Of a DNA stretch of 37,036 bases, positions 2,208-35,577 are shown piece by piece. This stretch comes from an uncultured Bacteroidota bacterium (GTDB taxonomy: Bacteria > Bacteroidota > Bacteroidia > Chitinophagales > S012-47). Within the stretch, counting starts at the first letter, position 1. Each line of letters opens with the position of its first letter. Made by a program: the position numbers and the translations under genes. The stretch is from contig CAJXXO010000002.1 in assembly GCA_913062655.1 (NCBI GenBank), forward strand, positions 1 through 37,036. Reading direction: 5' to 3'. The notes below the pieces were generated by a model. That model searched no databases, was not told where the DNA came from, and saw only the letters and a list, made by a program, of their open reading frames with translations.

Positions 2208-2222
2208 AGTTCTATTTTTAGA

Positions 2223-2230: not shown

Positions 2231-2263
2231 GTCGGGGTAACACATAATTGAAAGGGGATCAGA

Positions 2264-5200
2264 ATGAAAAGACTATTACTAGCCTTAGGGTTTATATTGG
2301 TGTCAACAGCTGTATTTGCAACACACATTGCAGGTGGAGTTATAGAGGTGGCCTGCACTGCTTCTGGAAATTACTCTGTTACTGTCCGTAAGTATAGAGA
2401 TGTTACTGGGGCAGGGTATGCGGGAGCTATTACGCTCACAGCTGAAGAAGTTAATTCAGGAAATACGCAAAACTTCCAATTAACAAGGGTTCAAATCAAT
2501 GCCAACCTTCAACCTCCTGTCACAAACCCCTGTCTAGTACCACCGGCTAATAGTGGACAAGATGAGCATGTTTATGAGGGAACTATTACCCTGAACAATG
2601 GGTCTGCTTACTACTTGTATCATCAGGATAATGCCAGGAACACAACCATGAATGTAACAGGTCAACCTGGAGCCACTATTTATGCTGAGTACCCCGATCC
2701 TGGAATTTATGGTTGTAACAATTCCCCGATTTTTAATGTAGGACCTCCCGTATCGGTTTGTCTGAATGAGCCATTGAATTATGATAATTCAGCTTTTGAT
2801 CCTGATGGAGATCAGCTTCAATACAGATTATGTGAGGCGTTTATCAATACCCCAGCCAATCCACCCTTCAACAGTGTACCATATACCAACCCTTACACTG
2901 CGCAAGACCCGGTATCTGCCAATCCTAATTTAGCCATTGATCCAGTTACCGGTATTGTAACCGGAACGCCAGACCTGGCCGGCCGCTGGGTTTTTACCGT
3001 TTGTGTAGATGAGTTTAGAAATGGCGTGCAAATCGGAGAATATCGTAGAGATGTGCAGATGACAGTGACAGCGTGCACCCAAACAACAACCGTTAATGTA
3101 CCGACAGATTATAATAGTGTTGCCCTCGGTCAAGATGTAATTGCCAGTTGTGATGACTCTACAGTTAACTTTACTACCACCAATGCAAACGCTTTCAATT
3201 ATTTCTGGGATTTTGGCGTAGCAGGCACCAACGCTGATACTTCAGATATTCAAAACCCAACTTTCACCTACCCTGATACTGGCACCTACACGGCTATGCT
3301 TATAATAAATGAAGGCTACATTTGTGCCGACACTGGATTTGTGACGGTCATTGTATATCCATATACGTATGCGGGTTTCACCGTTGCAGAACCGCAGTGT
3401 GTGGGTCAGCCCATACAGTTTAATGACACGTCATCTTGGACCTATGGTACTACCTTTAATTGGTCTTGGAGTTTCGGTGCAATTGGTATACCCAATTCGG
3501 GTACTCCCAATCCATCGCGAACCTATACTTCTCCGGGCGTTTACAATGTAAATCTGGTAGTTGAATCAAGCAAGGGCTGTAGGGATACGGCCAACCAACA
3601 AGTAAATGTTTATACGCCACCCACGGCCAATGCCGGTCCACCAACGATTACCATATGTGAGGGAGAGCCTGTTACACTACCTGCAACCGCCACAGGTGCC
3701 AATTCTTATCAGTGGACCTCCCCAAGTGGAGTGGCTTCGCTTGATTGTGATACATGTTTACAACCTACCGCCACACCATCTTCCACAACTGTTTATTCCC
3801 TGACCGCCACCGGTCCGGGAGGATGTGAAGATGATGACTTTATAACGGTTGTGGTACAACCAGCACCTGTAGTCAATGCCGGTCCAGATCAATTTTTATG
3901 TGGTACAGGAAGTGTGCAGCTAAGTGCGCAATTAGTGTCTAGCCCAGGTGGGGTATTCTGGAATTGGTCTCCTTCTACGGGGCTCAATAGTACGCAAGTA
4001 TCCAATCCTACGGCCAGTCCATCCCAGACTACAACGTATGTTGTAACAGCTACTTCCATCAATGGCAGTTGCGTAGGACGGGATACAGTTACGGTTTTTT
4101 TAAATGCCGTTTCGGTGGATGCTGGCACAGCACCTACGATTTGTCCAGGCGATACGGCTACCTTATCGTCTTCCACACCAGTGGCTAATGCTACCTATAG
4201 TTGGGCACCTGCCACCAACATATCGGATCCTACGTCAGCCAACCCTGATGTTTGGCCGGCAAGTACTACTACCTACACGCTAACCATAACAGACCCCGTC
4301 TCTGGTTGTAATGGGGTAGATTCTGTGGAAGTCACCGTAAGTCCTTTGCCACCTGTAAATGCGGGTAACGATAGCACAATCTGTATCAATACTACGGCTC
4401 AGCTCAATGCAACAGGAGCGTCTACCTATACCTGGGATGCCGATCCAACCCTTAGTGGGACGAATATTCCCAATCCAGTGGCCTCGCCAGGTCAAACTAC
4501 TACCTATTACGTAACGGGTGAGGACGCTATTGGGTGTGTAAATAGAGATAGCATCACCTTGACTGTTGTGCCGCCAGCGAACATTAATGTAACTCCGGAT
4601 ACCACCATTTGTGCTAATACTTCTGCGGCACTCAATGCGAGTGGAGGTGTAACCTATACCTGGACGCCAGCAGGGTCTCTGGTGGGGGCAAATACAGCCT
4701 CACCAACCGCCTCTCCAACCTCGTCTACCACGTATTCGTTGACGGTAGAAGACGCCAATGGATGTTTTATAGATACAACGGTAGCTGTTACGGTAACACC
4801 ACCACCATCAATAGATGCAGGTACGGTCAACTCCATATGTTTTGGTGACTCTACCATATTAAATGCCACAGGCGGCATTAGTTATACGTGGACACCTAAC
4901 ACCAATATTATTGGCGCTAACACAGCAAATCCAACTGTATTCCCCGCGGCCACCACTACATACACAGTAGTGGGGGAAGACGCTACAGGTTGTACCAATG
5001 TAGATTCGGTTACTGTAGTAGTAAATACATTGGCCAACGGAGGCTTTAGCCCTGATACCGCCATCTGTGACGGTGAATCAGTAGTATTGTCGGCCAACGG
5101 ATTTACACAGTACACGTGGAAGCCGGCTGGCTCGCTGAGTACCCCAACCGGTAACGCAACAACCGCCTCACCAACTACTACAACCACTTACACTGTTGTA

Positions 5201-20876: not shown

Positions 20877-21920
20877 TTAGGAGGCCTTTTCCAATGTAAA
20901 AGCAAAGGTGGACCCTTCGTCCTTGGTGCTGCGAACGTTGATGGTTTGATTGTGCGCTTCGATGATGTGTTTTACGATGGATAGCCCCAGGCCGGTTCCG
21001 CCCATGTGGCGACTGCGGCTCTTATCTACCCGGTAGAAGCGTTCAAAGACGCGTGGAAGGTCATCTTTGGAAATACCAATGCCATCATCGGCCACCTCTA
21101 TGAGAATATTGGGGTCCATATCATAGAAACCAATGAGCGTGCGGCCATTTTCGGAGCCGTATTTAATGGAGTTGGTCACCAAATTGACCAGTACCTGGCG
21201 TATGCGGTCACGGTCGCCTAAGACGATAGTTGGCTTTTCGCAACCTTTTTTAAAGCCCAGGGTGATATCATTGGAGTCGGCTTGCATCTCCAGCGATTCA
21301 AATACCTCCTGCGCTAATTGGTAAATGTCGAAAGGGCGCAGCTCCATGGCCAGGGTGCCCGATTCCAAGAGCGAAATGGCTTCCAGGTCTTCGACAATGG
21401 TATTCAGTCGCTCCGCATTCTTTGAGGCTTTGTAGAGGTAGTCCAGGTTGATTTTGTCGTCTTTCAGCCCTCCATCAATGAGGGTATGGATATACCCTTG
21501 CATATTGAAAAGGGGGGTTTTCAGCTCATGTGATACGTTGCCCAGGTACTCCCTGCGGAATTGCTCTGTTTGTTTCAGCTCTTCAATTTCCTTTTGCCGG
21601 TCCGCTGTCCACTCCCGCACCTCAGTCTCCACCTCTTCCAGGAAGTTATCCCGCAAACTGAGCTGTTTTACAGATGATTTGGTGCGCTTGCTGTCGTGTA
21701 TGGCTTTGTAGATAACCTTCACCTTTCGGTAAATGAATTGCTCCAGCATATACATGGTAAAGAGGTAAGCAGCCGGAAAAAATATGATAACCCCCACCAA
21801 CAGCACCCACCAGTCAAAATGGTTGGTAAACCATTGGGCGACCAACATCACCACCAGCATCATAGCGGTTAACACCGCGGCTGATAACAGTGCGATCTGC
21901 CTGGGGGTTGGGTTTTTCAT
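20877..21920 (-). CDS. phoR: PhoR-like sensor histidine kinase
   Basis: This 347-residue kinase has two membrane helices (~10-31 and 36-58) with almost no periplasmic loop, as in E. coli PhoR, which senses phosphate indirectly. A linker follows, then the HisKA domain with 'YLGNVSHELKTPL' (phospho-acceptor His131). The HATPase domain has an N box 'NLVTNSIKYG', a G1 box 'VADDGIGI', an F box 'FERFYRVDKSRSR' and a G2 box 'GGTGLGLSIVK'. No PAS domain is apparent. Its ATG shares one base with the stop of the response regulator gene (TAATG), so the two form an operon. The PhoR assignment rests on architecture, pairing with a PhoB-like regulator and the Pho-box-like array upstream; the family alone does not prove the signal. 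Confidence 0.85.
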   Translation of the reverse strand: MKNPTPRQIALLSAAVLTAMMLVVMLVAQWFTNHFDWWVLLVGVIIFFPAAYLFTMYMLEQFIYRKVKVIYKAIHDSKRTKSSVKQLSLRDNFLEEVETEVREWTADRQKEIEELKQTEQFRREYLGNVSHELKTPLFNMQGYIHTLIDGGLKDDKINLDYLYKASKNAERLNTIVEDLEAISLLESGTLAMELRPFDIYQLAQEVFESLEMQADSNDITLGFKKGCEKPTIVLGDRDRIRQVLVNLVTNSIKYGSENGRTLIGFYDMDPNILIEVADDGIGISKDDLPRVFERFYRVDKSRSRHMGGTGLGLSIVKHIIEAHNQTINVRSTKDEGSTFAFTLEKAS

Positions 21921-22603
21921 TAATAATCGAGTTTGTAGCCGATGCCTTTGATGGTTTTGATGGCATCGTCACCGAGTTTTTCGCGCAGCTTACGAATGTG
22001 TACGTCAATGGTTCGGTCCCCAACGATCACATCCTTGCCCCAGATTTTACTGAGGATTTCTTCCCGCTTGAATACTTTGCCCGGCTTGGAGGCCAGTAAG
22101 TACAGTAATTCAAACTCCTTTCGAGGCAGGAAAATTTCATTGTTCTCCATGCGCACAATAAACCGCTCCCGATCGATCTGCAAATTGCCCACGCGGATTA
22201 CGCTATCCGTTTCTTCCTTGAGCTGTCTGCGGAGCAAGGCATTTACCCGGCTTACCAAAAGGCGCGGTTTGATAGGTTTGGTAATGTAATCGTCAGCGCC
22301 AACATCGAAGCCGGCAATTTGGGTAAAGTCTTCGTTTCTGGCTGTCAAAAAAGCGATAAGGGTATTTTTGAATTCGGGCAGCGCCCGCAGTTCACGGCAC
22401 GTTTCGATGCCGTCCATTTCCGGCATCATGATATCCAGAAGGATCAAATCGGGTGATTCCAGCTTGGCCTTTTCGATCGCCTCCTGGCCGTTTTCAGCCA
22501 GCACTACCTGGTAGCCTTCCTTCTGTAAGTTGTAGTCCACGAATTCGAGAATATCGGGCTCGTCATCTACGACCAGGATGGTGAATTTTGATTTGCCAGC
22601 CAT
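21920..22603 (-). CDS. phoB: PhoB-like OmpR-family response regulator
   Basis: This 227-residue protein has a receiver domain with the acidic pair 'VVDDEPD' (Asp13, Asp14), phospho-acceptor Asp57 in 'LILLDIMMPEMDG', and Lys in 'YITKPIKP'. The C-terminal winged-helix DNA-binding domain contains 'FELLYLLASKPGKVFKREEIL' and the recognition segment 'VGDRTIDVHIRKLREKLG', ending 'IKTIKGIGYKLDY', as in PhoB/PhoP regulators. It heads the phoBR operon. A perfect -7 element lies 17 nt upstream of the ATG, preceded by a five-unit 11-bp-period repeat array, the layout of PhoB autoregulation. The gene symbol is by architecture and context. Confidence 0.88.
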   Translation of the reverse strand: MAGKSKFTILVVDDEPDILEFVDYNLQKEGYQVVLAENGQEAIEKAKLESPDLILLDIMMPEMDGIETCRELRALPEFKNTLIAFLTARNEDFTQIAGFDVGADDYITKPIKPRLLVSRVNALLRRQLKEETDSVIRVGNLQIDRERFIVRMENNEIFLPRKEFELLYLLASKPGKVFKREEILSKIWGKDVIVGDRTIDVHIRKLREKLGDDAIKTIKGIGYKLDY

Positions 22604-22620
22604 ACCGTTCCAGTTTTTTG

Positions 22621-22628
22621 CAAAGGTA
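22621..22628 (-). promoter_or_regulatory. -7 element of the phoBR promoter
   Basis: The minus strand reads TACCTTTG, a perfect TAnnTTTG, 17 nt before the phoB ATG. No -33 TTTG is present at the usual spacing; the repeat array at 22639-22688 occupies that region, as in activator-dependent promoters. Confidence 0.65.
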
Positions 22629-22638
22629 GCGGGCCTTA

Positions 22639-22688
22639 CGTTAAGCTTTCGTTACGCTTGGCTTAGCAAGGTGTTAATATACAGGTAA
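22639..22688 (-). promoter_or_regulatory. Pho-box-like array: five hexamers at exact 11-bp period upstream of phoB
   Basis: Read on the minus strand toward phoB, hexamers start at 22688 TTACCT, 22677 TTAACA, 22666 CTAAGC, 22655 GTAACG and 22644 TTAACG, each exactly 11 bp from the last. The final one starts 16 bp before the -7 element. PhoB and PhoP sites in other bacteria are direct repeats with 11-bp periodicity, and Bacillus PhoP sites use TTAACA-like hexamers. The array lies between phoB and the stress-protein operon and could act on both, but its spacing fits the phoB promoter. Confidence 0.7.
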
Positions 22689-22772
22689 TTTTACCAAACG
22701 GTCAACCGCTGATTTTTATCAACTGTCTAGATTCGAAAAACTGGTATTTTTCCCGTAAATCAAAGTAACCCT

Positions 22773-23690
22773 ATGAAATCAATAAAACGCCTAATGGTTG
22801 CCCTGGACCTTTCCGACATGGACCGGACCCTGGTGCAATATGCCTTTTTCCTGGCTGAGACCATTGACCTGAAGCACCTCGACTTTGTGACAGTGGATGA
22901 GCAGATGGATGAGAGCGATCAGCAAATATTGGCTGAACTCAATCTACAAGTAAGCCCGGAAGTCAACTTCAAAGACTGGGTAGATGAGCTCACAAAGGAG
23001 CATGCTAAGCCGGATCATGTTGACGTGGGGTGTCATTTGCTCACCGGCTCGCCTCTGCATGAATTACTCCGATATGCGCGGGATGAGTCGGTGGATATGA
23101 TATTGGTGGGGGCGAAGCAGCACCAGGATGGTACCGGCATATTGTCGAGTCGATTGGTGCGAAAGGCCCCTTGCTCGGTAATGTATGTGCCGGAAAATCC
23201 ACCCACGGCCATCAAACGAATCCTTATCCCTACAGACTACTCGGAGTACTCCAGGATGGCTTTTGATGAAGTGAAGCTCTTTAAAGACGATTTTCCCGAT
23301 GTTGAAGTGGTGGCCCAACACGTTTATCGTGTGCCTTTGGGCTTTTACAAAACGGGCAAAAGCTATGAGGAGTTTGCACAGATTATGGAAGAGAACAGCA
23401 AAAAGCTGTTTGACCAATTTGTTGAGGAGAACGACCTGGCCGACATGGACCTGAAGCCGCAATTTGTATTGGACGATGACAAGAATCCGGCTGACAAGAT
23501 CGTAGCGCAGGCAGAGGCAGAGAAGGTGGATTTGATGATCATCAGTGCCAAAGGACACACGAGGGCTTCATCAATCTTGTTGGGTAGTACAACAGAGAAG
23601 GTCTTGCGTTTGGACAAGCGCATTCCCGTGATGATTTTGAAGAAAAAAGGAGAGACCCTTAATCTGCTTGATATTTTGTTGAAAATTTAG
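22773..23690 (+). CDS. Tandem-domain universal stress protein
   Basis: This 305-residue protein has two Usp domains (about 1-145 and 148-295). The first starts 'IKRLMVALDLSDMD' and the second 'IKRILIPTDYSEYSRMAF', each with the leading beta-strand and Asp of the Usp fold. The second has 'AKGHTRASSILLGST', close to the G-2x-G-9x-G-S/T ATP-binding motif but with the first Gly replaced; the first domain is more degenerate. It is first in an operon of three such proteins and a VIT1/CCC1 transporter. A TATTTTTC sequence at 22745-22752 is a possible -7 element, one base off consensus. Confidence 0.9.
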   Translation: MKSIKRLMVALDLSDMDRTLVQYAFFLAETIDLKHLDFVTVDEQMDESDQQILAELNLQVSPEVNFKDWVDELTKEHAKPDHVDVGCHLLTGSPLHELLRYARDESVDMILVGAKQHQDGTGILSSRLVRKAPCSVMYVPENPPTAIKRILIPTDYSEYSRMAFDEVKLFKDDFPDVEVVAQHVYRVPLGFYKTGKSYEEFAQIMEENSKKLFDQFVEENDLADMDLKPQFVLDDDKNPADKIVAQAEAEKVDLMIISAKGHTRASSILLGSTTEKVLRLDKRIPVMILKKKGETLNLLDILLKI

Positions 23691-23698
23691 GAGGCGTC

Positions 23699-24538
23699 AT
23701 GAAAAAGATTCTAGTGGCCTTTGATGGTTCGTACTACTCCGAATCTGCACTCCAGTTTGCCATTGGGCTGGCCAGGCGTGAGGAAGCACAAATTACCGGG
23801 GTATTCCTCGAAGATGTAACGGCTTATCACCAGTTTAGCCCCATATTCGAAGCCCCGGACGCGGTGGGCTTGGCAGAGGATGTAATCCGGGACTTGAAGA
23901 ACGAGGTGCGGGAAAACCTATCCGTGACCGTCAATCGGTTTAAAAAAACCTGTGACCAGGCCGGTATTCCTTACCTCATAGAGATGGAAGAGGGAATCCC
24001 TTCTTTAGAGCTGTTGGAGGAAACGCAATTTGCAGACTTATGTGTAGTAGGTTCAGTAACCTATTTCAGTAACCTCAGCTTTGCCAATGAATCGCGTCTG
24101 CTATCTGATTTATTGGGTAAGGCGCACTGTCCGATTCTTGTGGTACCCGAACAAGCGGAAGAGCTAAAACATGTAATCCTCACTTACGATGGCTCGGCCT
24201 CCTCAGTGTATGCCATAAAACGCTATGTGCAGCTCTTTGCCCGGACCCATTGCCAGCTTCCATCCACCTTGTTGACAGTAGTAAGACACGAAGGCGATAA
24301 ACTACCCCAGGAAGAGGCTTTGGTGGACTACTTGCGGTTGTATTGTGACACCTTGCAGCAACAAACCCTGGTCGGTAAGCCCAGCGAACAAATACTGTAT
24401 ATGGCCAAAACCACTCCGGGTAGTATGGTGGTCATGGGGGGGTATGGGCGAAATGCCTTTAGCCAGTTGCTGAAAAGTTCTGTGGGTAAGAAAGTAGTTA
24501 ATGCCCGAACGGTACCGGTATTGGTAGCGCATGAGTAA
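23699..24538 (+). CDS. Tandem-domain universal stress protein
   Basis: This 279-residue protein has Usp domains at about 1-155 ('KKILVAFDGSYYSESAL') and 158-279 ('KHVILTYDGSASSVYAI'). The C-terminal 'GGYGRNAFSQLLKSS' is a near match to the ATP-binding loop with the third Gly replaced by Ser; the first domain lacks the motif. A strong Shine-Dalgarno sequence (AGGAGG at 23689-23694) overlaps the preceding stop codon, unusual for this phylum, where many genes lack one. The last 8 bp overlap the transporter gene. Confidence 0.9.
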   Translation: MKKILVAFDGSYYSESALQFAIGLARREEAQITGVFLEDVTAYHQFSPIFEAPDAVGLAEDVIRDLKNEVRENLSVTVNRFKKTCDQAGIPYLIEMEEGIPSLELLEETQFADLCVVGSVTYFSNLSFANESRLLSDLLGKAHCPILVVPEQAEELKHVILTYDGSASSVYAIKRYVQLFARTHCQLPSTLLTVVRHEGDKLPQEEALVDYLRLYCDTLQQQTLVGKPSEQILYMAKTTPGSMVVMGGYGRNAFSQLLKSSVGKKVVNARTVPVLVAHE

Positions 24539-25277
24539 TAGTATGGAGTCCATCCAACAAAAAGAAGATAAGCTGCATGGCAATGGCCTGGGGCAACTCA
24601 AGGTGTACCTCAGTGAGTTTGTCTATGGCGGTATTGATGGTAGTGTGACCACCTTTGCGGTGGTGGCAGGTGCTACGGGGGCCAATTTATCGGTAAACAC
24701 CGTCCTTATCTTGGGTTTTGCCAACTTGATTGCCGATGGGCTATCCATGTCGATAGGCAATTATCTATCAGTCAAGTCAGAGATACAGGAGTTTTATCGA
24801 CACAAGAATATCGAGTACTGGGAGGTGGACAACCTGCCGGAAAAAGAGAAGGAAGAGATACGGGATATCTACCGTGCCAAAGGGTTTACAGGAGAGCTGT
24901 TGGAGCAGGTGGTAGAGACAATAACGGCTAACCGGGAGCGCTGGGTGGATGTGATGATGAAAGAAGAGCTGGAAATGGCTTTGCCGGCAGAATCACCGGT
25001 AAAGAAAGCCGCTGCAACCTTCATCTCCTTCTTTCTGGTAGGCCTGATACCCTTGCTTACCTACGTATGGCATGCGCTTCATCCCATTGTAGAAAGCAGC
25101 TTGTTTACCGTATCTTGTATATTGACCTCAGTGGCCTTTATCCTGATCGGTTGGCTGAAGAGTTACATCACCGAAACCAGTCGCTGGCGGAGTATGGTAG
25201 AGACCTTGCTTTTAGGTGGCGTAGCGGCCATCACCGCCTACTTTGTCGGTGATATCTTAGAGTCTTTATTAACCTAA
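24531..25277 (+). CDS. VIT1/CCC1-family iron/manganese transporter
   Basis: This 248-residue membrane protein matches the VIT1/CCC1 family. 'EFVYGGIDGSVTTFAVVAGATGA' is the first transmembrane segment, with its conserved Asp and Gly. 'GFANLIADGLSMSIGNYLSVKSE' is the second, with Asp, Ser and Asn. A cytosolic acidic helix pair follows, with Glu-rich 'YWEVDNLPEKEKEEI' and 'MMKEELEM' that corresponds to the metal-binding domain, then three C-terminal helices. Plant and yeast members load Fe2+ or Mn2+ into the vacuole by proton exchange; in bacteria export or sequestration of metal is likely. It is embedded between universal stress protein genes and overlaps the preceding one by 8 bp. Confidence 0.92.
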   Translation: MSNSMESIQQKEDKLHGNGLGQLKVYLSEFVYGGIDGSVTTFAVVAGATGANLSVNTVLILGFANLIADGLSMSIGNYLSVKSEIQEFYRHKNIEYWEVDNLPEKEKEEIRDIYRAKGFTGELLEQVVETITANRERWVDVMMKEELEMALPAESPVKKAAATFISFFLVGLIPLLTYVWHALHPIVESSLFTVSCILTSVAFILIGWLKSYITETSRWRSMVETLLLGGVAAITAYFVGDILESLLT

Positions 25278-25287
25278 ATCCTGCCTT

Positions 25288-26118
25288 ATGAAACGTATTG
25301 TAGTAGCTACCGATTTCTCCTCCATTGCGGATCAGGCATTTCTCTACAGCGCTCACCTGGCGGCCCACTTTGGCGCTGAACTCCACGTGGCGCATGTGGT
25401 ATCTCCCAGCCCTTTCCTGGCACACTCACCAGGAGACCTGATAGATCAAACCCTGAAGGAAATGACCCGGGAAGTGGAGCTACATATGACTGAAATGCAG
25501 CAACAATTACCCCAATCCATAAAGGGAAAGGTTGACTTGGTGTATGAAGTGCGCGAAGGGCTTGTCATAGACCAATTACGCGACATTGCGGATGATGTAG
25601 AGGCGGATCTGATGGTAATGGGTACGCATGGTAAGACCGGCTGGCGAGAAGTATTGATGGGTACCCATGCCGCAGCGATGGTAGGGCGGTTGGACATTCC
25701 CTTGCTACTTGTCCCGCCAAAGACTGACTACAATGGTATGCGGCACATCGTGTACGCTATCGACTATCATGACGTACCAGACCGGGAACTGCAGCAATTG
25801 CAGGTTTGGACCCGTTCCTTCTCTTCCCGGCTCTCGCTTTTGCATGTAGATCAAGAGGAAGGAGAGGTAGATGAGGACCAATTGTTTAGCCTGCGCAACA
25901 CGGTAGCGGCACTGGATGGGGTTGATGATGTAAAGTATGCCTTTATTGAAGGTGACGATGCTTTACTGTCCATCAACGATTGGGTAGAAAGTCATCAGGC
26001 AGACCTGCTGGTAGTGAAGCATCGCAATCAAAATTTCTTTCAGCAGTTGGTCCGGAAGAGCTTGTCGCGCCAAATGACCCGGTACACCAGTATTCCCATG
26101 ATGGTTTTTAGCCAGTGA
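25288..26118 (+). CDS. Tandem-domain universal stress protein with intact ATP-binding motif
   Basis: This 276-residue protein has two Usp domains (about 1-147 and 150-276). The first starts 'KRIVVATDFSSIADQAF' and keeps the full nucleotide motif 'GTHGKTGWREVLMGT', fitting G-2x-G-9x-G-T. The second is degenerate. It is therefore the one member of the three with a complete ATP-binding signature and may act as the nucleotide-sensing partner. It follows the transporter gene by 10 bp and closes the operon; no clear terminator follows. Confidence 0.9.
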   Translation: MKRIVVATDFSSIADQAFLYSAHLAAHFGAELHVAHVVSPSPFLAHSPGDLIDQTLKEMTREVELHMTEMQQQLPQSIKGKVDLVYEVREGLVIDQLRDIADDVEADLMVMGTHGKTGWREVLMGTHAAAMVGRLDIPLLLVPPKTDYNGMRHIVYAIDYHDVPDRELQQLQVWTRSFSSRLSLLHVDQEEGEVDEDQLFSLRNTVAALDGVDDVKYAFIEGDDALLSINDWVESHQADLLVVKHRNQNFFQQLVRKSLSRQMTRYTSIPMMVFSQ

Positions 26119-26147: not shown

Positions 26148-26197
26148 TTACCGAGTGCTTAACACAAACTTAAAGTACGGGTAAAGGGCCAGTAATA
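26148..26197 (+). promoter_or_regulatory. Pho-box-like array: five hexamers at exact 11-bp period upstream of the T9SS beta-helix gene
   Basis: Hexamers start at 26148 TTACCG, 26159 TTAACA, 26170 TTAAAG, 26181 GTAAAG and 26192 GTAATA, each 11 bp apart. The last starts 15 bp before the -7-like element at 26207. The first two units match the first two of the phoB array (TTACC-N6-TTAACA), and the fourth and fifth share a G-for-T change with unit four of that array. Confidence 0.68.
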
Positions 26198-26206
26198 TCT
26201 CATATC

Positions 26207-26252: not shown

Positions 26253-27944
26253 ATGAGAAGACTTGTACTACTGAGCTTAGCTATGATTGGGTTCGTAGCG
26301 GCCAAAGCGCAAACTGTAGTCACCATCACAGATGCTGACCTGCAGCCTAACCAAACTTACAACTGGACAAAAGACAACATCTACTTGTTGGATGGTTTCG
26401 TATTCGTAGACTCAGGAGCTACCTTGAATATCGAAGCAGGTACAGTAATCCAGGCCAAGGAAACACCAACTACTGGTGACAATGCTTCTGCTTTGATTGT
26501 GGCCTCTACGGCACAGATCTTTGCAACCGGTACGGCTGACGAGCCAATCATCTTCACCTCTGAGTTGGATGATGTAAACAACCCTTCCGATCTGGACGAG
26601 ACCGATCGTGGTTTGTGGGGTGGCCTTATCCTATTGGGCCCTGGTACCATTGGTAATACGACACCAACCACCGGTATTGAGGGTATCCCGGTATCGGAAA
26701 CACGTGCTATCTATGGTGGCAATGATGACGACAACAACGTTGGTACATTGCAGTACGTTTCTATCCGTCACGGTGGTGCCGCTTTGTCACCTGGTGATGA
26801 AATCAACGGTTTGACCTTGGGGGGTGTTGGTTCGCAAACTACTTTGGAGCACATTGAAGTGTTTGCCAACTCTGACGATGGTGTTGAGTTCTTTGGTGGT
26901 AAGCCAGAGCTGAAATGGGCCATTACGGCCTTCTGTGGTGACGATGCTTTCGACTGGGATACAGGATTCCAGGGTAAGGGTCAATTCTGGCTCGTTGTGC
27001 AAGCTACCGATGCCGCTGACAACGGTGCTGAGCAAGATGGTGCCAAGCCGGATGATAACCCTCGCTTTGCTGCACCTACCATTTACAATGCTACCTATAT
27101 TGGTGGAGGCGCCAATACCCCGGTTCAGGGTGACTTTGCCAACACCAACGCTTTGTACTTCCGCGATGGAACAGGCGGATACTACGGCAATTCAATCTTC
27201 ACCGACTTTGCCCAAAAGGCCATCGAAGTGGAAGATTTAGAAGCTTCAAAAGGTGTCGATTCCCGTCAGCGCATGGAGAATGGTGAGTTGTCGTTGGAAA
27301 ACAACCTATGGTTTGGTTTTGGCAACTTCACTGCTTTAAATGCTGATCCGGCTACAGGTATCATTCGTTTCACACCAGGTGGCGAGGATACTACTTGTCA
27401 GTTTTTGATCGACCACTTGGCCAACAATGGTAACCAATTGGTAGACCCTCAATTACGCGGTATCTCTCGTACTGCCGGCAGCAAAGGGTTGGACCCTCGT
27501 CCGCAAGCAGCAGAAGCCACTACCGGATTGGCAGCCTACCCTACAGGGGATGATTTCTTCACTGCTACAGGCTACAAAGGAGCATTCAACCCGGCCTTCT
27601 CTACGACCTGGGCACACGGTTGGACAGCATTAGATGAGTACGGTTACCTGGCAGAGCCAACAGGCATCAATGCTTTGACTGAAGCAGGATTCGTATTGAA
27701 CCAAAACCAGCCCAACCCGGCAGATGCTGCCACCATCATCACTTTCGAATTGCCAGAAACAGCTGACATCAACGTATACGTAACCGATATTACCGGTCGT
27801 ATCGTGAAGGAGGTAGTTAACGGTACCTTCAATGCAGGTACACACAATGCTACCATCAACACAGCTGACCTGCAAGCAGGCGTTTACTTCTACACTTTAG
27901 CAGTAGGTAATAGCCAAATCACGAAGAAGATGATTGTTCAGTAA
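26253..27944 (+). CDS. Secreted beta-helix-like protein with T9SS type A sorting domain
   Basis: This 563-residue protein has a signal peptide (MRRLVLLSLAMIGFVAAKAQ). A right-handed beta-helix-like region follows, with 'GATLNIEAGTVIQA', 'LWGGLILLGPGTIG', 'LQYVSIRHGG' and 'LEHIEVFANSDDGVEFFGG'. This recalls secreted Bacteroidota proteins often labelled only 'hypothetical' or, misleadingly, 'multidrug transporter'. The last ~80 residues are a type A T9SS sorting domain ('NQPNPADAATIITFELPE', 'DITGRIVKEV', 'LQAGVYFYTLAVG', ending 'KKMIVQ'). I start it at the ATG before the signal peptide, not at the ATG at 26223. It precedes a TonB-dependent receptor that carries a similar upstream array, so the two may act together at the cell surface. 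The ligand is unknown. Confidence 0.88.
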   Translation: MRRLVLLSLAMIGFVAAKAQTVVTITDADLQPNQTYNWTKDNIYLLDGFVFVDSGATLNIEAGTVIQAKETPTTGDNASALIVASTAQIFATGTADEPIIFTSELDDVNNPSDLDETDRGLWGGLILLGPGTIGNTTPTTGIEGIPVSETRAIYGGNDDDNNVGTLQYVSIRHGGAALSPGDEINGLTLGGVGSQTTLEHIEVFANSDDGVEFFGGKPELKWAITAFCGDDAFDWDTGFQGKGQFWLVVQATDAADNGAEQDGAKPDDNPRFAAPTIYNATYIGGGANTPVQGDFANTNALYFRDGTGGYYGNSIFTDFAQKAIEVEDLEASKGVDSRQRMENGELSLENNLWFGFGNFTALNADPATGIIRFTPGGEDTTCQFLIDHLANNGNQLVDPQLRGISRTAGSKGLDPRPQAAEATTGLAAYPTGDDFFTATGYKGAFNPAFSTTWAHGWTALDEYGYLAEPTGINALTEAGFVLNQNQPNPADAATIITFELPETADINVYVTDITGRIVKEVVNGTFNAGTHNATINTADLQAGVYFYTLAVGNSQITKKMIVQ

Positions 27945-27970
27945 CACTTATTCACCTTCATCATACATAG

Positions 27971-27998
27971 GGCGTAGTCTTCGGGCTACGCCTTTTTT
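27971..27998 (+). terminator. Rho-independent terminator after the beta-helix protein gene
   Basis: A GGCGTAG / CTACGCC stem with an 8-nt loop containing TTCG is followed by six T. It separates the beta-helix gene from the TonB-dependent receptor gene, so each must have its own promoter. Confidence 0.88.
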
Positions 27999-28029
27999 AT
28001 GCATGACAGTCAGCGACTTGATAATCGCC

Positions 28030-28068
28030 TTAACAATTACATAACACTAGCACAAAGTTTTCATAAAT
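28030..28068 (+). promoter_or_regulatory. Weaker Pho-box-like array upstream of the TonB-dependent receptor
   Basis: Hexamers at 28030 TTAACA, 28041 ATAACA, 28052 ACAAAG and 28063 ATAAAT keep the 11-bp period. The first is identical to the best unit of the two other arrays. The following slots at 28074 and 28085 do not match well, so the array ends farther (37 bp) from the -7 element, close to two turns more than in the other promoters. Confidence 0.42.
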
Positions 28069-28099
28069 CCCGCACCACCAGCAGGGTAGGGCATAAAAG

Positions 28100-28107
28100 T
28101 AACTTTG
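28100..28107 (+). promoter_or_regulatory. -7 element of the TonB-dependent receptor gene
   Basis: TAACTTTG is a perfect TAnnTTTG, 16 nt before the ATG at 28124, the same close placement as in front of phoB. No -33 TTTG is seen at the expected distance. Confidence 0.6.
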
Positions 28108-28123
28108 CTCAAAATTTGAAACC

Positions 28124-31000
28124 ATGAATAAGGCTATTGGTTGTACGCTCCTCTTCATGGCATTAACACTTTGGGTGCAAGCCCAAACCGGTACCATTCG
28201 CGGTACCATCACGGATAAAGAAACCGGTGAAACCTTAATCGGTGTTAATGTCTACATTCAGGATCCCTTTATTGGAACCATCACTGATCTCAACGGAGCT
28301 TTCACCCTGGAAAACGTTCCTGCAGGTGTACATACGGTTGTCGTTTCCTATGTATCCTACACTACACAGAATATAGAAGGGGTCAATGTACAGGCTGATA
28401 ATGTTACGGTCCTGGATGTGCCCATGGCAGGCGAGTCCTTTGGACTGGAGGAAGTGGTGGTGCAAGCCAAAATAATGGACAATACCGAGAATGCTATTCT
28501 GGCTATGCAGAAGAAGTCACTTTCAGTGCAGGATGGCATTTCCAGCCAGGAGCTCAGTAAGATTGGCGCGGGCGATGCTGCCGAATCAGTGAAGTATATT
28601 ACCGGTGTATCCATTGTAGATGGCAAGTACATCAATGTTCGTGGCCTGGGTGACCGCTACTCCGGGGCACAGTTGAATGGTGTTACCCTGGCCAGTACAG
28701 ATCCCAATTCAAACAGTGCACAGTTGGACATCATACCGGCTAACCTGTTGGATAATATCATTACCTCTAAGACCTTCACTCCCGACCAACCGGGTGACTT
28801 TACCGGGGGTAATGTGAATATGAAGACCAAATCCTTCCCGGAGCAGTTTACCATGCAAGTATCTACCTCCTTGAGCTATAATGATGTAGTTACCGGGAAT
28901 AGTGACTTTCTGACGCACGAGGGCGGTGACCTGGAGTGGTTGGGCTACGATGACGGTAGCAGAGCCATGCCGGCTGTATTGCAACCGGAAGAAACGCGCG
29001 ACCTGTTGACACAAGGCTTTTACATCCGGGCGCGTGGCAACCAGGAGTTGGCCAATCTATTAGATGCAACTGCCAATTCGGTAAGTCCGCACATGGCACC
29101 TGTAAATGGAGCCGCCAGGCCCAATCACGGGGTGTCGGTATCATTTGGGAATCAGTACAAGGTGGCCGGTAAACCATTCGGTTTATTGATGGGGGCCAGT
29201 TACAAGCGTAATTATGGGGGGTATTTCAACGGGACCTTTGCCAACTGGGACCTGACCGGTGCTGCTGCAGAGGAAATGTTCAATTATTTCCGTTTTAACG
29301 ACAACCGCAATACCGACAACCCATCCATCAGTGCTTTGGCTAACTTATCGTATCGGTTAGCGCCCAAGCACGAGATTGGGGTAAATTTCATTTACAATCA
29401 TGATGCGGTCAAGGCCTCTCAGTTTATGGAAGGTCCTTATCCGGGTATTATATCGGCTACCAACAATGCATTCCAAACCCGCGCCCTGCACTTCAAAGAA
29501 AGAGGAATGCGTACGGTGCAGGTGAGGGGTAAGCACGTATTTGAAAGCTTGCGCAAGGCTGAGTTCGAATGGATCGGTGGCTATACCCGCTCTTTCCAGA
29601 ATGAACCGGACCTGCGCTTATTTGCCAACGAGTATGATGGCGCTAATGATGATTATTTTGTTCGCGTATCCGAGTATGATCGCCCTTCGCACTTCTTCCG
29701 CGACCTGCAGGATGATAGCTACGAATTCAAAGCTGATGTGACCATTCCATTGGGCTACGATGGTAAGCTTGGCAAGGTGAAATTAGGCGGCAACTACAAG
29801 CAGAAGGACCGGATGTCAAACGAAGACCGTTTCCGGTACAATTGGGTGGTCAACAATGCCAATGAAAGCTTATATACCCCCTATGAGGGCGATGCTTTAG
29901 CCTTTTTTGGTCCCGATAATACCGGAATTATTGGCTTTGACTCTACGCGTAATCGCTACCTCTTTGGTAATTACCTGATCGATGAATCGTTGGATGACAA
30001 CGACTACACCGGTACGGAAAGGATTACAGCCGGGTATGGTATGTTGGTATACCAATTGTCAGAGGACCTGAAGTTTATTGGAGGGCTGCGCGGAGAAGGA
30101 ACCTTCATGCAGGCCCAAAGTGCCGATACAACCCTGGAGGCCGGTGAGATCAACCGGATTGACCTTTTGCCTTCCGTTAACCTGATCTACTCGCTGACGA
30201 ATAATATGAATATTCGCCTGGCCGGTAGTCGAACCATCGCACGCCCTACCATGCGGGAAATGTCTCCTTTCAGTACCTATGATTTTATTGGTGGTGCTTT
30301 GGTGTCGGGTAATCCCAACCTCGACCGCAGCTTGATCTACAATGTAGACTTGCGCTGGGAATGGTTTGTGCGTCCGGGAGAGATTGTCGCTATCAGTGGT
30401 TTTTACAAGAACTTTCAGGATCCCATTGTCCGCTTGTTTATTCCTCGTGCGGCCAACCAGGAGATTACTTGGGTAAATACCAACGATGCTACGGTTTATG
30501 GAATAGAGCTGGATTTCCGTAAAGACCTGGACTTTATTTCACAGCGTCTGGCCAATTTCCGCTTTGGCATCAACTTTACCTACACTTACTCTGAAGTAGC
30601 GCTCGATCCCGAAGAGTACGAGACACTGGTGCGCATCAATCCTGAGATCCAGCCGACTCGCCCCTTCAACGGCCAGTCGCCCTACTTGCTGAATACCATG
30701 TTGAACTACAAAGCGGATTCGCTTGGACTGGAAATGAACCTGAACCTGAATGTGTTCGGCCCAAGGCTGACGGAGATCGGGTTCAATGGGGTGCCAGACA
30801 TCTACGAGCAGCCTCGTCCAATGCTGAATTTCAACCTGATGAAGGACATTGGCGATCGCTTCCAGGTCAAGCTCGGTGTCAGCAACATCCTAAATGCAGA
30901 ATTCAAGAAAACACAGACGTATAACAACCAGGAGTACATTACCCAACTCTATCAAATTGGGCGCACCTACTCCTTTGGCTTGTCCTATACGATTCGATAG
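28124..31000 (+). CDS. TonB-dependent outer-membrane receptor with CarboxypepD_reg-like domain
   Basis: This 958-residue protein has a signal peptide (~1-20, 'LWVQAQ'). A carboxypeptidase regulatory-like domain at about 22-105 follows ('GTIRGTITDKETGETLIGVNVYI', 'GAFTLENVPAG'). The plug domain at about 125-240 has 'AAESVKYITGVSIVDGKYINVRGLGDRYS'. The large beta barrel has alternating aromatic strands and ends in the barrel-closing 'TYSFGLSYTIR'. It should take up a ligand across the outer membrane using TonB energy. It has no SusD neighbour, so it is not a canonical glycan-uptake pair. Flanking genes are a secreted T9SS protein upstream and a Na/Pi cotransporter downstream, so phosphate or an organophosphate is a reasonable guess at the ligand, not a demonstrated one. 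Confidence 0.94.
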   Translation: MNKAIGCTLLFMALTLWVQAQTGTIRGTITDKETGETLIGVNVYIQDPFIGTITDLNGAFTLENVPAGVHTVVVSYVSYTTQNIEGVNVQADNVTVLDVPMAGESFGLEEVVVQAKIMDNTENAILAMQKKSLSVQDGISSQELSKIGAGDAAESVKYITGVSIVDGKYINVRGLGDRYSGAQLNGVTLASTDPNSNSAQLDIIPANLLDNIITSKTFTPDQPGDFTGGNVNMKTKSFPEQFTMQVSTSLSYNDVVTGNSDFLTHEGGDLEWLGYDDGSRAMPAVLQPEETRDLLTQGFYIRARGNQELANLLDATANSVSPHMAPVNGAARPNHGVSVSFGNQYKVAGKPFGLLMGASYKRNYGGYFNGTFANWDLTGAAAEEMFNYFRFNDNRNTDNPSISALANLSYRLAPKHEIGVNFIYNHDAVKASQFMEGPYPGIISATNNAFQTRALHFKERGMRTVQVRGKHVFESLRKAEFEWIGGYTRSFQNEPDLRLFANEYDGANDDYFVRVSEYDRPSHFFRDLQDDSYEFKADVTIPLGYDGKLGKVKLGGNYKQKDRMSNEDRFRYNWVVNNANESLYTPYEGDALAFFGPDNTGIIGFDSTRNRYLFGNYLIDESLDDNDYTGTERITAGYGMLVYQLSEDLKFIGGLRGEGTFMQAQSADTTLEAGEINRIDLLPSVNLIYSLTNNMNIRLAGSRTIARPTMREMSPFSTYDFIGGALVSGNPNLDRSLIYNVDLRWEWFVRPGEIVAISGFYKNFQDPIVRLFIPRAANQEITWVNTNDATVYGIELDFRKDLDFISQRLANFRFGINFTYTYSEVALDPEEYETLVRINPEIQPTRPFNGQSPYLLNTMLNYKADSLGLEMNLNLNVFGPRLTEIGFNGVPDIYEQPRPMLNFNLMKDIGDRFQVKLGVSNILNAEFKKTQTYNNQEYITQLYQIGRTYSFGLSYTIR

Positions 31001-31019
31001 ATGCAACCAATAGTCTGAA

Positions 31020-31051
31020 AGAGGGGAGTCGAGTAATTGACTTCCCTTTTT
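31020..31051 (+). terminator. Rho-independent terminator after the TonB-dependent receptor gene
   Basis: AGAGGGGAGTC pairs with GACTTCCCTTT (11 bp including two G-U pairs) around an 8-nt loop, followed by T residues. Its T tract overlaps the possible -7 element of the next gene. Confidence 0.78.
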
Positions 31052-31056
31052 CTTTG
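31049..31056 (+). promoter_or_regulatory. Possible -7 element of the Na/Pi cotransporter gene
   Basis: TTTCTTTG matches TAnnTTTG except for the second base and is followed by CA. It lies 40 nt before the ATG at 31097. No Pho-box-like array precedes it. Confidence 0.35.
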
Positions 31057-31096
31057 CACAACTGTTAACTTCACAGCCACCCAAAATCGTGCTAGC

Positions 31097-32812
31097 ATGA
31101 ATGTGATTCTGGATATTCTGGTGATCGTGGGCGCACTTGGCATCTTCATTTACGGGATGAAGATGATGAGTGAGGGTATCCAGAAAGTGGCCGGTAAGCG
31201 GCTGCGCAAGCTGCTCAGCGGCATGACCCGTAACCGTTTGACTGGTATTATCACCGGTTTTTTTACCACCTCAGTGGTGCAGTCATCCAGCGCTACTACG
31301 GTAATGGTTGTAGGTTTTGTGAATGCCGGCCTACTGACCTTGGTGCAAGCCTCCGGGGTGATTATGGGCGCGAATATTGGCACCACCATCACCGGTTGGA
31401 TTGTCTCCGTACTTGGCTTCAAGGCCAACATAGAAGTCTTTGCCCTCATCGTAGTGGCGGTGAGTTTTCCTATGCTTTTTTCTAAAAAGGACAACCTGAA
31501 AAACCTGGCCGAATTCATGATCGGTTTTGGTATTCTTTTTATCGGCTTGAGTATTCTGAAGGATTCTGTGCCCGACCTGCGGCAAAACCCGGAGGCTCTC
31601 GAGTTTCTGAATCAGTTCACCGGCTATGGCTACGGTTCCGTTTTGATCTTTATTGCCGTGGGCACGCTGCTCACAATCGTGGTGCAGTCCTCCAGTGCTA
31701 CGATGGCCATTACACTGGTATTGATTGCAGAGGGGTGGATCAACTTTGAAACGGGGACGGCTATGGTGCTCGGTGAAAATATCGGCACCACTATTACGGC
31801 CAACCTGGCCGCATTGGTCGGTAATATTCATGCTAAACGGGCCGCCCGTTTTCACAGTGTGTTCAACTTGTTAGGGGTTATCTGGGTGTTGATCATATTT
31901 TTCCCTTTTCTCGATTTTGTCGATTGGCTGAATCAGCGCCTTTTTCACGATGCATCGATTTACACAGTAGTGCAAGACCCTGAAAATCTAAGTGCCAATA
32001 ACACCGTATTGACGGATGGGCTGGCACTGTTCCATACCACCTTCAATATTATCAATACGTTTTTGCTGTTCTTCGTAGCACCGTACCTGGTGCGATTGAT
32101 CGTGAAGTTGGTGCCCTCCAAGGGGAGCGATGATGAAGGATTTAAGCTCACTCATATCAGCTCCGGCTTGATGTCAACGCCTGAGTTGTCTATTCAGGAA
32201 GCACTTAAGGAGCTGCAACAATTCGGTCGACTGATTGAGAAGATGTGTGCCAATGTGATGGTGATGATGTTTAAGACGCCACGCAATCGCGATAAGTTGT
32301 ACATGAAGATTCGTGACCGGGAAGACATCACCGACCGGTTGCAAAATGAGATCACCACTTACATGGCCAAACTGGGGCAATACCGGTTGAGTGAAGACAG
32401 TGCCGGTAAGGTGAAGGGTATGATTCGGATGGCCAATGACCTGGAGCGAATGGGGGATATTTTTTACAAGCTGGCCATCAATAAGCGCAAACAAGAGGAG
32501 CAAAAGAAATTGATGCCGGAGAGTATTGCCACTGAGCTGGACCTGTACTTTGATCAGATCTATCGAGCCATTAAGCAGATGAACAAAAATATGCTGGCTC
32601 CGGCAGGTGAAATAGATATGGAACAAGCGTACGAAAACGAGCGTGAGATTAATGAAACCCGCGACCACCTGAAGCAAGTAGTGTACGAGCGAATCGAGTC
32701 GGGCCAATATGGCGTGGAGGAAGGGATCCTGTACCTCGACTTCGTAAACAGCGCTGAAAAGTTGGGCGATCACATAATCAATGTCAACCAAGCTTTAAGC
32801 GGTATCAAGTAA
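31097..32812 (+). CDS. Na/Pi cotransporter family protein with C-terminal PhoU-like domain
   Basis: This 571-residue membrane protein carries the two inverted-repeat 'QSSSAT' signatures of Na+/phosphate cotransporters (NptA/YjbB/SLC34-like), near residues 62 and 197, each followed by 'GxNIGTTIT' ('GANIGTTITGWIV', 'GENIGTTITANLA'). About eight or nine helices precede a ~200-residue helical cytosolic tail (about 363-565) resembling PhoU, with 'MIRMANDLERMGDIFYKLA' and 'LDFVNSAEKLGDHIINVNQAL'. YjbB-type members may export phosphate, so direction cannot be assumed. I start it at the ATG before the first helix; the longer ATG at 31037 overlaps the terminator and promoter region. Confidence 0.92.
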   Translation: MNVILDILVIVGALGIFIYGMKMMSEGIQKVAGKRLRKLLSGMTRNRLTGIITGFFTTSVVQSSSATTVMVVGFVNAGLLTLVQASGVIMGANIGTTITGWIVSVLGFKANIEVFALIVVAVSFPMLFSKKDNLKNLAEFMIGFGILFIGLSILKDSVPDLRQNPEALEFLNQFTGYGYGSVLIFIAVGTLLTIVVQSSSATMAITLVLIAEGWINFETGTAMVLGENIGTTITANLAALVGNIHAKRAARFHSVFNLLGVIWVLIIFFPFLDFVDWLNQRLFHDASIYTVVQDPENLSANNTVLTDGLALFHTTFNIINTFLLFFVAPYLVRLIVKLVPSKGSDDEGFKLTHISSGLMSTPELSIQEALKELQQFGRLIEKMCANVMVMMFKTPRNRDKLYMKIRDREDITDRLQNEITTYMAKLGQYRLSEDSAGKVKGMIRMANDLERMGDIFYKLAINKRKQEEQKKLMPESIATELDLYFDQIYRAIKQMNKNMLAPAGEIDMEQAYENEREINETRDHLKQVVYERIESGQYGVEEGILYLDFVNSAEKLGDHIINVNQALSGIK

Positions 32813-33734: not shown

Positions 33735-34670
33735 ATGCGTAAGATTCTTATCACCGGTGGGGCCGGTTTCATTGGAAGTGCCTTGGCCGACAAATTGATT
33801 GCCGATCCGGACAATTATGTGGTTGTGGTGGACAATTACCTGACCGGCAAAACCACTAACCTGGATCGATTCAAAGGCGTCAATGCCAAGTTTATCAAGT
33901 GTGATGTCAACAGTTTCCGCGATATCTCACAAGTGATGATCGCCTATTCCTTTGATTATGTCTTTCATTATGCAGCCGTAGTGGGCGTACAGCGGACCCT
34001 ACGTAATCCGGTGATGGTATTGCAAGACATTGATGGCATCAAGAACATTCTCGAACTTTCAAAGAATACAGGCGTCAGGCGAGTTTTCTTCTCCTCCAGC
34101 TCAGAAGTGTATGGAGAGCCGGTGGAATTGCCCCAAAACGAAACCACCACACCACTCAATAGTCGCCTGCCCTATGCTGTGGTCAAGAATGTTGGGGAAT
34201 CCTTTTGTCGTTCCTTTCAGCAGGAGTTTGGATTGAACTTTACCATATTCCGCTTTTTCAATACCTACGGACCGCGGCAAAGCACCGATTTTGTCATGTC
34301 GCGCTTCATTCGTTCGGCCCTGGCCAATAAGCCCATCACCATCTATGGGGATGGCAGCCAAACGCGTACCTTCTGCTATATAGACGATAACATTGATGCA
34401 ACCACCAACGCTTTTTATAAAGAGCGCTTTGTCAATGATGTAGTGAATATTGGCAACGACATCGAAGTGTCCATCAAAGAGTTGGCCGAGCAGGTGATTG
34501 CCCTTACCAATTCCCAATCGAAAATTCGTTTTGTATCTGCATTGAAGGAGGGCGATATGAGACGCAGAATGCCCGACATCAGTAAAATGCACTCGTTGCT
34601 GGATAGACCGCTGTTACCGTTGGAGAAAGGTATCATGCGGGTGATCCAGGAGGGGAATTTTGTGCAGTAA
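33735..34670 (+). CDS. NAD-dependent epimerase/dehydratase (extended SDR, NDP-sugar)
   Basis: This 311-residue enzyme has the NAD-binding 'ILITGGAGFIGSALADKL' at 4-21, 'VVVDNYLTGK', the catalytic Ser region 'FFSSSSEVYGEP' near 118-129 and the YxxxK motif 'YAVVK' near 147. 'FFNTYGPRQ' and 'ITIYGDGSQTRTFCYIDD' bind the sugar nucleotide. Motif spelling is closer to UDP-glucose 4-epimerase or UDP-glucuronate decarboxylase-like members than to RmlB, which usually has 'STDEVYG'. Its co-transcription with rmlA nevertheless suggests an NDP-sugar for surface glycan. Its 3' end overlaps the convergent exopolyphosphatase gene by 38 bp. Confidence 0.88.
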   Translation: MRKILITGGAGFIGSALADKLIADPDNYVVVVDNYLTGKTTNLDRFKGVNAKFIKCDVNSFRDISQVMIAYSFDYVFHYAAVVGVQRTLRNPVMVLQDIDGIKNILELSKNTGVRRVFFSSSSEVYGEPVELPQNETTTPLNSRLPYAVVKNVGESFCRSFQQEFGLNFTIFRFFNTYGPRQSTDFVMSRFIRSALANKPITIYGDGSQTRTFCYIDDNIDATTNAFYKERFVNDVVNIGNDIEVSIKELAEQVIALTNSQSKIRFVSALKEGDMRRRMPDISKMHSLLDRPLLPLEKGIMRVIQEGNFVQ

Positions 34671-35577
34671 GCTGCTGTAACAAGGCGCCTTCCCGTAGGC
34701 CATATTTCGAGATGACCAGCGCTGTGGCACCAAGTTGTTCCATTACCCAGCGCGCCTGAAAAGCCGCCATTAAGAAATATTCAGCTCGTGCGGGCTTCAG
34801 TCCCGGCCAATCCAGCCGCTGTTGCAAGGTGCTATGCATGATAGGATCCAGCACTTCGCGTACGGTGGTGGCCTTCAGCCGGATACCCGGTTGGTCCCCA
34901 CAGAGCGCATAGAATGATTTGCCGGGGTGTTGCAATTCAGGAATAGTCTCAAACGAACCAGAAGTACCTACCATCAGCGGTTGGCCGTCCTTTTTTATAT
35001 CCGCTAGTGTTTCATCCAACTGTTCCCCCAACCACTTAGCTGCCAGCTCTGCTTTTTGCGCATCTAGGGTATCAAAGGCGTCAAAGCGTGTGGCCATCAC
35101 TGCTGCACCAATGGGGAAGCTACGCGCCCACTGAATGATGCCATTCTTGCACCAGGTCAGCTCTGTGCTGCCGCCTCCGATGTCCATGAGTAGGAAATGC
35201 TGCTCATCCGGCAGGCCCAATTGCACCGCTTCGCAAGTCCAACGCGCCTCTTCTTCGCCTGAAATGATTTGAATAGGGACCTCCAACAGTTCCGATAATT
35301 CTTGCTGTAGCGCCTGCCCTTCCTCCAGGGTGCGGAAAGCCTCAGTGCCTACAGCTACTATCGTATCGGGATTATAGGCATCGATTTGATGAATAAACCG
35401 CTTCAGCGCCTCAACGGCTCGCCTGCGCATGGTGGGGACTACTTTGGTAGCAGATTCCCTGGTCATCTTCACGAAGACTTCATCCTGCTCTACAAAAATG
35501 AGATTAGGGCCCGGTTCTACAATATAAAGGCCAAGTTGAAAAGTGTTTGTCCCTAAGTCCAGTACCGCTGCTTTCAT
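34633..35577 (-). CDS. ppx: Ppx/GppA-family exopolyphosphatase
   Basis: This 314-residue protein has the actin-like ATPase fold of the Ppx/GppA family: 'AVLDLGTNTFQLGLYIVE' at the N-terminus (phosphate 1), 'VAVGTEAFRTLEEGQAL' near 85, the catalytic Glu region 'IISGEEEARWTCEAV' near 117, and 'LLMDIGGGSTEL' near 149 (phosphate 2). It lacks the C-terminal HD-like domain of longer enzymes such as E. coli Ppx, so it is the short two-domain form that removes terminal phosphate from polyphosphate or acts on pppGpp. With ppk1 about 24 kb away, the window holds both synthesis and breakdown of polyphosphate. A TAACCTTG sequence only 4 nt before the ATG is too close to be a confident promoter. Confidence 0.9.
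   Translation of the reverse strand: MKAAVLDLGTNTFQLGLYIVEPGPNLIFVEQDEVFVKMTRESATKVVPTMRRRAVEALKRFIHQIDAYNPDTIVAVGTEAFRTLEEGQALQQELSELLEVPIQIISGEEEARWTCEAVQLGLPDEQHFLLMDIGGGSTELTWCKNGIIQWARSFPIGAAVMATRFDAFDTLDAQKAELAAKWLGEQLDETLADIKKDGQPLMVGTSGSFETIPELQHPGKSFYALCGDQPGIRLKATTVREVLDPIMHSTLQQRLDWPGLKPARAEYFLMAAFQARWVMEQLGATALVISKYGLREGALLQQLTAQNSPPGSPA

Follow-up and report, generated by a model that had tools for sequence, protein, structure and literature searches.

A likely Pho-regulon pair of a surface helix protein and a TonB-dependent receptor in an uncultured Bacteroidota bacterium

Two neighbouring genes in a 37,036-nucleotide stretch of DNA from an uncultured Bacteroidota bacterium (contig CAJXXO010000002.1 of GenBank assembly GCA_913062655.1; we call the whole stretch the window) encode a secreted protein with a predicted beta-helix, here the helix protein, and a TonB-dependent receptor. 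We think it likely that the two form a surface uptake pair of the Pho regulon, which would be activated by the response regulator PhoB and would import a phosphorus compound. The promoter step of this activation is strongly supported by the sequence in front of both genes. The metagenome-assembled genome that contains the window (G000) comprises 2.88 Mb in 423 contigs and is 83% complete.

A preliminary description of the window had placed a type IX secretion system (T9SS) protein, a TonB receptor and a Na/Pi transporter side by side, and had read them as a possible undescribed phosphate-acquisition module. Profile matches confirm all three genes at their positions (Table 1). The word "undescribed", though, does not fit the pair, which is of a kind already reported: ElpS with CC0171 in Caulobacter (PMC2996285), and FI or FII with a TonB-dependent transporter (TBDT) in Flavobacterium johnsoniae (PMC8115612). 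The three genes adjoin, yet they look like three transcription units, because terminator hairpins lie 3' of the first and of the second gene. The latter hairpin was found by folding; a simple terminator scan did not list it.

Table 1. Features of the pair, its putative regulators and the neighbouring transporter gene in the window.
Feature	Position	Strand	Evidence
PhoR-type histidine kinase	20877-21920	-	best match PnpS, 259 bits, below cut-off; adjoins phoB
PhoB-type response regulator	21920-22603	-	orthology to PUSIV-type PhoB; TIGR02154 ranks first, below cut-off
Pho-box-type array before phoB	22638-22677	-	19.9 bits; third and last site over the null maximum
Pho-box-type array before helix gene	26159-26198	+	20.6 bits; ends 54 bp before ATG
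ElpS/FI/FII-family secreted protein, 563 aa (helix protein)	26253-27944	+	TIGR04183, AlphaFold2, homologues, conservation
Intrinsic terminator hairpin after helix gene	27969-27994	+	11 pairs and T run; segment -21.3 kcal/mol
Pho-box-type array before receptor gene	28030-28069	+	21.4 bits, best site in window; ends 54 bp before ATG
TonB-dependent receptor, 958 aa, partner of helix protein	28124-31000	+	CarbopepD_reg_2, Plug and barrel; TIGR01782-like
Terminator hairpin, receptor/Na/Pi intergenic region	about 31018-31052	+	16-pair stem including T run; segment -24.4 kcal/mol
NptA-type Na/Pi cotransporter with C-terminal PhoU domain, 571 aa	31097-32812	+	Na_Pi_cotrans and PhoU; TIGR00704 222.7 bits, cut-off 210.1

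Promoter arrays and PhoB control

We modelled the regions upstream of the pair's lead gene in 62 relatives, excluding the window, by tied-period expectation maximization with an unknown motif repeated four times at 11 bp. The model converged on TTAACA-nnnnn with an 11-bp period. A second run on 56 regions gained 383 log-likelihood units at period 11 and at most 39 at periods 8-10 and 12-14. This approach, with its held-out tests and period controls, superseded a simple consensus array scan. When the four-repeat matrix was applied to both strands of the whole window, only three sites scored above 16.8 bits, the null maximum set by 40 simulated windows. They lie before the receptor gene, the helix gene and phoB, so the Pho-box-like arrays that had been reported before the first two genes stand. 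Chance as the origin of the arrays can be rejected: three window sites exceed the maximum of the simulations, and period 11 alone brings the gain.

The array before the helix gene (TTAACA-CAAAC-TTAAAG-TACGG-GTAAAG-GGCCA-GTAATA, four 11-bp repeats) outscores all 492 control upstream regions. Among 19 loci that the model had not seen, 17 lead genes reached p <= 0.012 against 492 control promoters (Mann-Whitney p 1e-11). An array (p <= 0.05) precedes 53 of 56 lead genes, compared with 9 of 56 second genes; hence the usual layout is one operon with one array. The window is unusual in having two arrays for one pair. Promoters of PstS genes, taken as an additional validation, gave a mixed picture, with clear arrays at two loci (L199 and L204), weaker ones at two others (L197 and L198) and none at several more.

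The half-site TTAACA agrees with the motif TTTAACA that DAP-seq yielded for PhoP of Riemerella, another member of the Bacteroidota; this regulator likewise occupies a site in front of its own phoPR operon (PMC9603813). We take the arrays to be predicted PhoB binding sites, and the array before phoB would then point to putative autoregulation. The window's PhoB is 62-65% identical to the PhoB proteins of loci of the PUSIV type, a Flavobacterium locus type described below, and the next best regulators reach about 36-40%. Each genome gives up to 76 matches, and the best of them is the PUSIV-type PhoB. Two curated models rank first without passing their thresholds: TIGR02154 (227.8 bits, cut-off 296) and NF053854 (218.6 bits, cut-off 270). 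Given the promoter arrays, this orthology and the presence of phoB and phoR in the same window, PhoB very probably controls the helix and receptor genes.

The intergenic region 22604-22772 separates phoB (minus strand) from an operon on the plus strand (22773-26118) that encodes two universal stress proteins (Usp), a VIT1-family transporter and a further Usp. In addition to the phoB array, this region holds a weaker, overlapping array directed towards the operon (p 0.006 vs controls). The stress operon may thus be linked to PhoB as well. These Usp and VIT genes are the upstream neighbours of the pair; downstream, genes for sugar-nucleotide metabolism can be read from the sequence.

The helix protein, its receptor and their described relatives

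The helix protein carries a signal peptide, and there is no lipobox in MRRLVLLSLAMIGFVAAKAQT. Residues 487-563 form a T9SS type A C-terminal sorting domain (TIGR04183, 50.7 bits, cut-off 23), and the core, at about residues 20-400, is a predicted right-handed beta-helix. In the AlphaFold2 model (pLDDT 70, pTM 0.68) short strands are stacked on each other. Foldseek returned weak matches and no confident fold match, and searches of the core against Pfam, NCBIfam and PDB sequences gave none. Hence, of the "T9SS beta-helix protein" in the preliminary description the T9SS tail is firm, and the beta-helix fold is moderately supported by the model. Eight acidic residues (D208, D209, E212, D230, D231, D234, E260 and D262) form a line that is conserved across most of the 117 domain rows compared. 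The first two acidic pairs are 22 residues apart and so would stack on adjacent turns of the helix. A metal- or ligand-binding site common to the family is suggested by this pattern.

Of 393 genomes of the phylum, 271 contain a homologue of the helix core. In a maximum-likelihood tree the group that holds the window protein has 45 rows (support 98/92), and 35 of them have a T9SS tail. When a simple lipobox test is applied, most of the Flavobacterium-like forms of the PUSIII and PUSIV types and most of those from proteobacteria come out as lipoproteins. Within the family the surface anchor has changed several times.

The helix domain is present twice in many members of the family and four times in one. 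Duplications were seen at L040, L050, L053, L145 and L082; the protein of L145 (1867 aa) has the four copies, and that of L082, on a contig from a metagenome-assembled genome labelled Akkermansia (1631 aa), has at least two. Flavobacterium-like genomes also hold several orphan paralogues (L112-L114, L117-L119), which have no receptor, lipobox or T9SS tail by the tests used. TTAACA-type arrays are found at some orphans as well (L112, L117, L121 and L126). Elsewhere in the window, positions 108-7624 encode two large, repeat-rich surface proteins; a T9SS type B sorting domain is carried by the one encoded at 2264-7624 (1786 aa).

The receptor is not a full SusC: it scores 58.3 bits with the SusC/RagA model TIGR04056, whose cut-off is 368. 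All helix-partner receptors that we tested resemble TIGR01782 and score below its cut-off. No SusD gene was found among the genes neighbouring the pair, in line with the preliminary description. On these two grounds we reject membership in the SusCD/PusCD systems. The likeness to them is a surface protein joined to a TonB-dependent receptor in Bacteroidota, and PusCD is also regulated by phosphate; in the window, however, the surface partner is an unrelated protein.

Both a helix and a TBDT gene are present in all 60 loci that we read and in none of 40 control regions; since the loci were picked by their helix matches, this figure informs on the receptor only. Lower-scoring Flavobacterium-like helix paralogues, many of them without a receptor, were read apart from these 60. 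The two genes adjoin in nearly all locus maps. The preliminary description had suggested asking whether the pair co-occurs with phosphate genes. It does, but only as a weak signal compared with the promoter arrays: within 10 kb, 6 of the 60 loci have phoB (0 of 40 controls) and 12 have a match to at least one of seven phosphate-related queries (2 of 40 controls; Fisher p 0.04). On plasmid pBGP9 of Alteromonas macleodii (L136) a single block comprises phoB, phoR, a phosphate-binding protein, a 2OG oxygenase, the helix gene, the TonB receptor and ExbB/ExbD/TonB; we count this block in favour of a Pho-regulon uptake pair. The ExbB-ExbD neighbours of family f25 were considered as a phosphate cluster and rejected, as their Pfam domains are ExbB, ExbD, AIRS, FtsH, PTPS and FolE2.

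Two bodies of work describe pairs of this kind. In Caulobacter, the lipoprotein ElpS is made under phosphate starvation and is encoded beside the TonB receptor CC0171 and genes of a type II secretion system (T2SS); ElpS is released by a T2SS-dependent protease, and the co-occurrence of ElpS and CC0171 was noted (Le Blastier et al. 2010, PMC2996285). In F. johnsoniae, FI and FII lie beside TBDTs in PUSIII and PUSIV and show strong induction when phosphate is depleted (Lidbury et al. 2020, PMC8115612). PUSIII (Fjoh_3851-3859) contains FI and a TBDT; PUSIV (Fjoh_0541-0549) contains a GT, Porin_O_P, PhoR, PhoB, a TBDT and the FII lipoprotein. For FII and its TBDT the FC column gives 9.91 and 8.02 under phosphate depletion (PMC8115612).

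Our own link to these systems is built on gene order and orthology rather than on direct comparison with the Caulobacter or F. johnsoniae proteins. Genus g20, which we call Flavobacterium-like because of its gene order, has helix loci in the order of PUSIV (Glyco_tran_28_C, Porin_O_P, PhoR, PhoB, receptor, helix) and in that of PUSIII (ECF sigma, FecR, receptor, helix, T9SS protein, S41 peptidase), with neighbours that carry the Pfam domains published for both (PMC8115612). The two best genome-wide matches of the window receptor in a Flavobacterium-like genome (G206) are the PUSIII-type and PUSIV-type helix-linked receptors. Homologues on Sphingomonas and Indioceanicola plasmids follow the order published for ElpS: helix, receptor, T2SS.

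The window thus shares with PUSIII and PUSIV a homologous helix protein beside a homologous receptor and an orthologous PhoB, and the receptors of PUSIV-type loci are preceded by the same promoter arrays. In contrast to these loci, the window's helix gene precedes the receptor gene, with an array for each and a terminator in between; its product has a T9SS tail where the described members have a lipid anchor; and no Porin_O_P was detected in G000. As the anchor varies within the family tree, the lipid-anchor mismatch marks a variant and does not exclude membership. With ElpS and CC0171 the window has in common a secreted protein linked to phosphate starvation and paired with a TonB receptor, but the Caulobacter protein is a lipoprotein with T2SS-dependent release, whereas the window organism uses the T9SS. 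Two things are new relative to the described pairs: the T9SS tail as anchor, which many members of one large clade have in common, and the distribution of the pair over two units with an array each.

The neighbouring Na/Pi transporter gene

The third gene resembles the NptA-PhoU Na/Pi cotransporters: it passes the curated TIGR00704 cut-off and has the PhoU domain. Its listed open reading frame begins at a TTG at 31037, but the ATG at 31097 is the likelier start. As the preliminary description had stated, there is no Pho array before it (1.7 bits, p = 0.30). It is the sole Na_Pi_cotrans gene found in G000, and none was found in the nearest complete relatives that carry the pair (G037, G178 and G162). 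PstS was not found in G000. A Pit-type (PHO4) transporter of about 740 aa is encoded elsewhere in the genome (G000:C70:7232-8620, L233), with a modest TTAAC-type array in front (p 0.012). The gene is probably a separate unit that is not wired into the pair. We found no support here for its membership in a module, because of the terminator before it, the missing array, its absence from the nearest complete relatives, and the Pit-type gene with an array elsewhere. We also considered NptA as an established part of the module in G000 and rejected it.

What the gene does instead is a separate question. It could be a phosphate exporter, an overflow valve that acts with polyphosphate kinase (PPK) and Ppx in polyphosphate balance and has nothing to do with the pair. 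We regard this as nearly an even bet. The missing array would fit such a role, and the window also encodes polyphosphate kinase 1 (PPK1, 8797-10929) and a Ppx/GppA-type protein (34633-35577). For the NptA-like YjbB, a role in phosphate export has been put forward (Motomura 2011, cited in PMC13170248). However, several NptA types are importers (PMC13170248), and a gene neighbourhood alone cannot settle the direction of transport.

What the pair may do

For the pair itself we propose the following. Under low phosphate, PhoR and PhoB (20877-22603) would activate PhoB's own gene, the helix gene and the receptor gene through the four 11-bp TTAACA repeats; that low phosphate induces the pair is suggested by the Flavobacterium relatives. 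The helix protein would be exported by Sec and the T9SS, whose pore protein SprA is present in G000, and be fixed on the cell surface by its T9SS tail. There it may capture a phosphorus compound or present it to the receptor, perhaps by way of the acidic patch on successive helix turns, and the receptor would import it into the periplasm, as the constant pairing and the receptor's class suggest. Released phosphate could then cross the inner membrane through the Pit-type transporter, and perhaps also through the neighbouring NptA. As for the substrate, the most likely candidate is an organophosphate or some other bulky phosphorus compound, in line with the proposal made for PUSIII and PUSIV.

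Several observations weigh against such an uptake pair. No biochemical function has been assigned to any member of the family. In Caulobacter, deletion of elpS left phosphatase activity unchanged, and ElpS was still made after deletion of cc0171, a gene that was expressed in rich and poor medium alike (PMC2996285). A further recognised phosphate gene lies within 10 kb at just 12 of the 60 loci, several Flavobacterium-like paralogues (L112-L114) have no adjacent receptor, and the fold itself is predicted with moderate confidence only.

Since the Caulobacter mutants show no clear phenotype, we keep a supporting role for secreted phosphatases as an alternative. Instead of a lid that hands over a ligand, the helix protein would be an accessory of such enzymes, or itself a hydrolase that frees phosphorus from polymers, and the receptor would import the product or something else that the cell needs under phosphate stress. 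When ElpS is overproduced, extracellular alkaline phosphatase activity rises, yet the protein has no such activity of its own (PMC2996285). FI and FII were modelled on polygalacturonase (PMC8115612), and the acidic residues on consecutive turns are family-wide. We nevertheless consider this less likely: the core has no Pfam or PDB sequence match, no phosphatase gene lies beside the window pair, and an invariable pairing with a receptor suits transport better.

That helix protein, receptor and Na/Pi transporter form one three-layer phosphate conduit in the window organism, as their adjacency had suggested, is improbable for the reasons given for the Na/Pi gene, and because its PhoU-bearing product is of a different subtype from the one encoded where such an arrangement does seem real and conserved. 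This is family f39, distant from that of the window, in which genes for receptor, helix protein and a shorter Na/Pi protein follow one another next to PPK at five of five loci (L048, L051, L137, L138 and L156). The PPK gene is divergent from the other three. PstS was not found in nine of nine f39 genomes, nor PHO4 (Pit) in four of four. The idea of a three-layer module, weak in the window, thus appears to hold in f39.

A bolder extension of the uptake pair, which we judge rather unlikely, is that the helix protein, held by its T9SS anchor, plays a part like that of SusD: a surface receptor with a new fold, it would pass phosphorus compounds on to the TonB receptor. In lineages without PstS and Pit, the pair and a dedicated Na/Pi transporter would then be the main phosphorus route from the surface to the cytoplasm. 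With its pair followed by a Na/Pi gene and neither PstS nor Pit found, the f39 lineage provides a clean natural experiment on the role of the pair. The TTAACA repeat every 11 bp, very clear in the promoters of the helix family, is a ready marker of the regulon. The helix family occurs in about two thirds of the sampled Bacteroidota genomes, with a core for which there is no Pfam or NCBIfam model, and it draws attention to a part of bacterial phosphorus scavenging about which little is understood: how the outer membrane is crossed.

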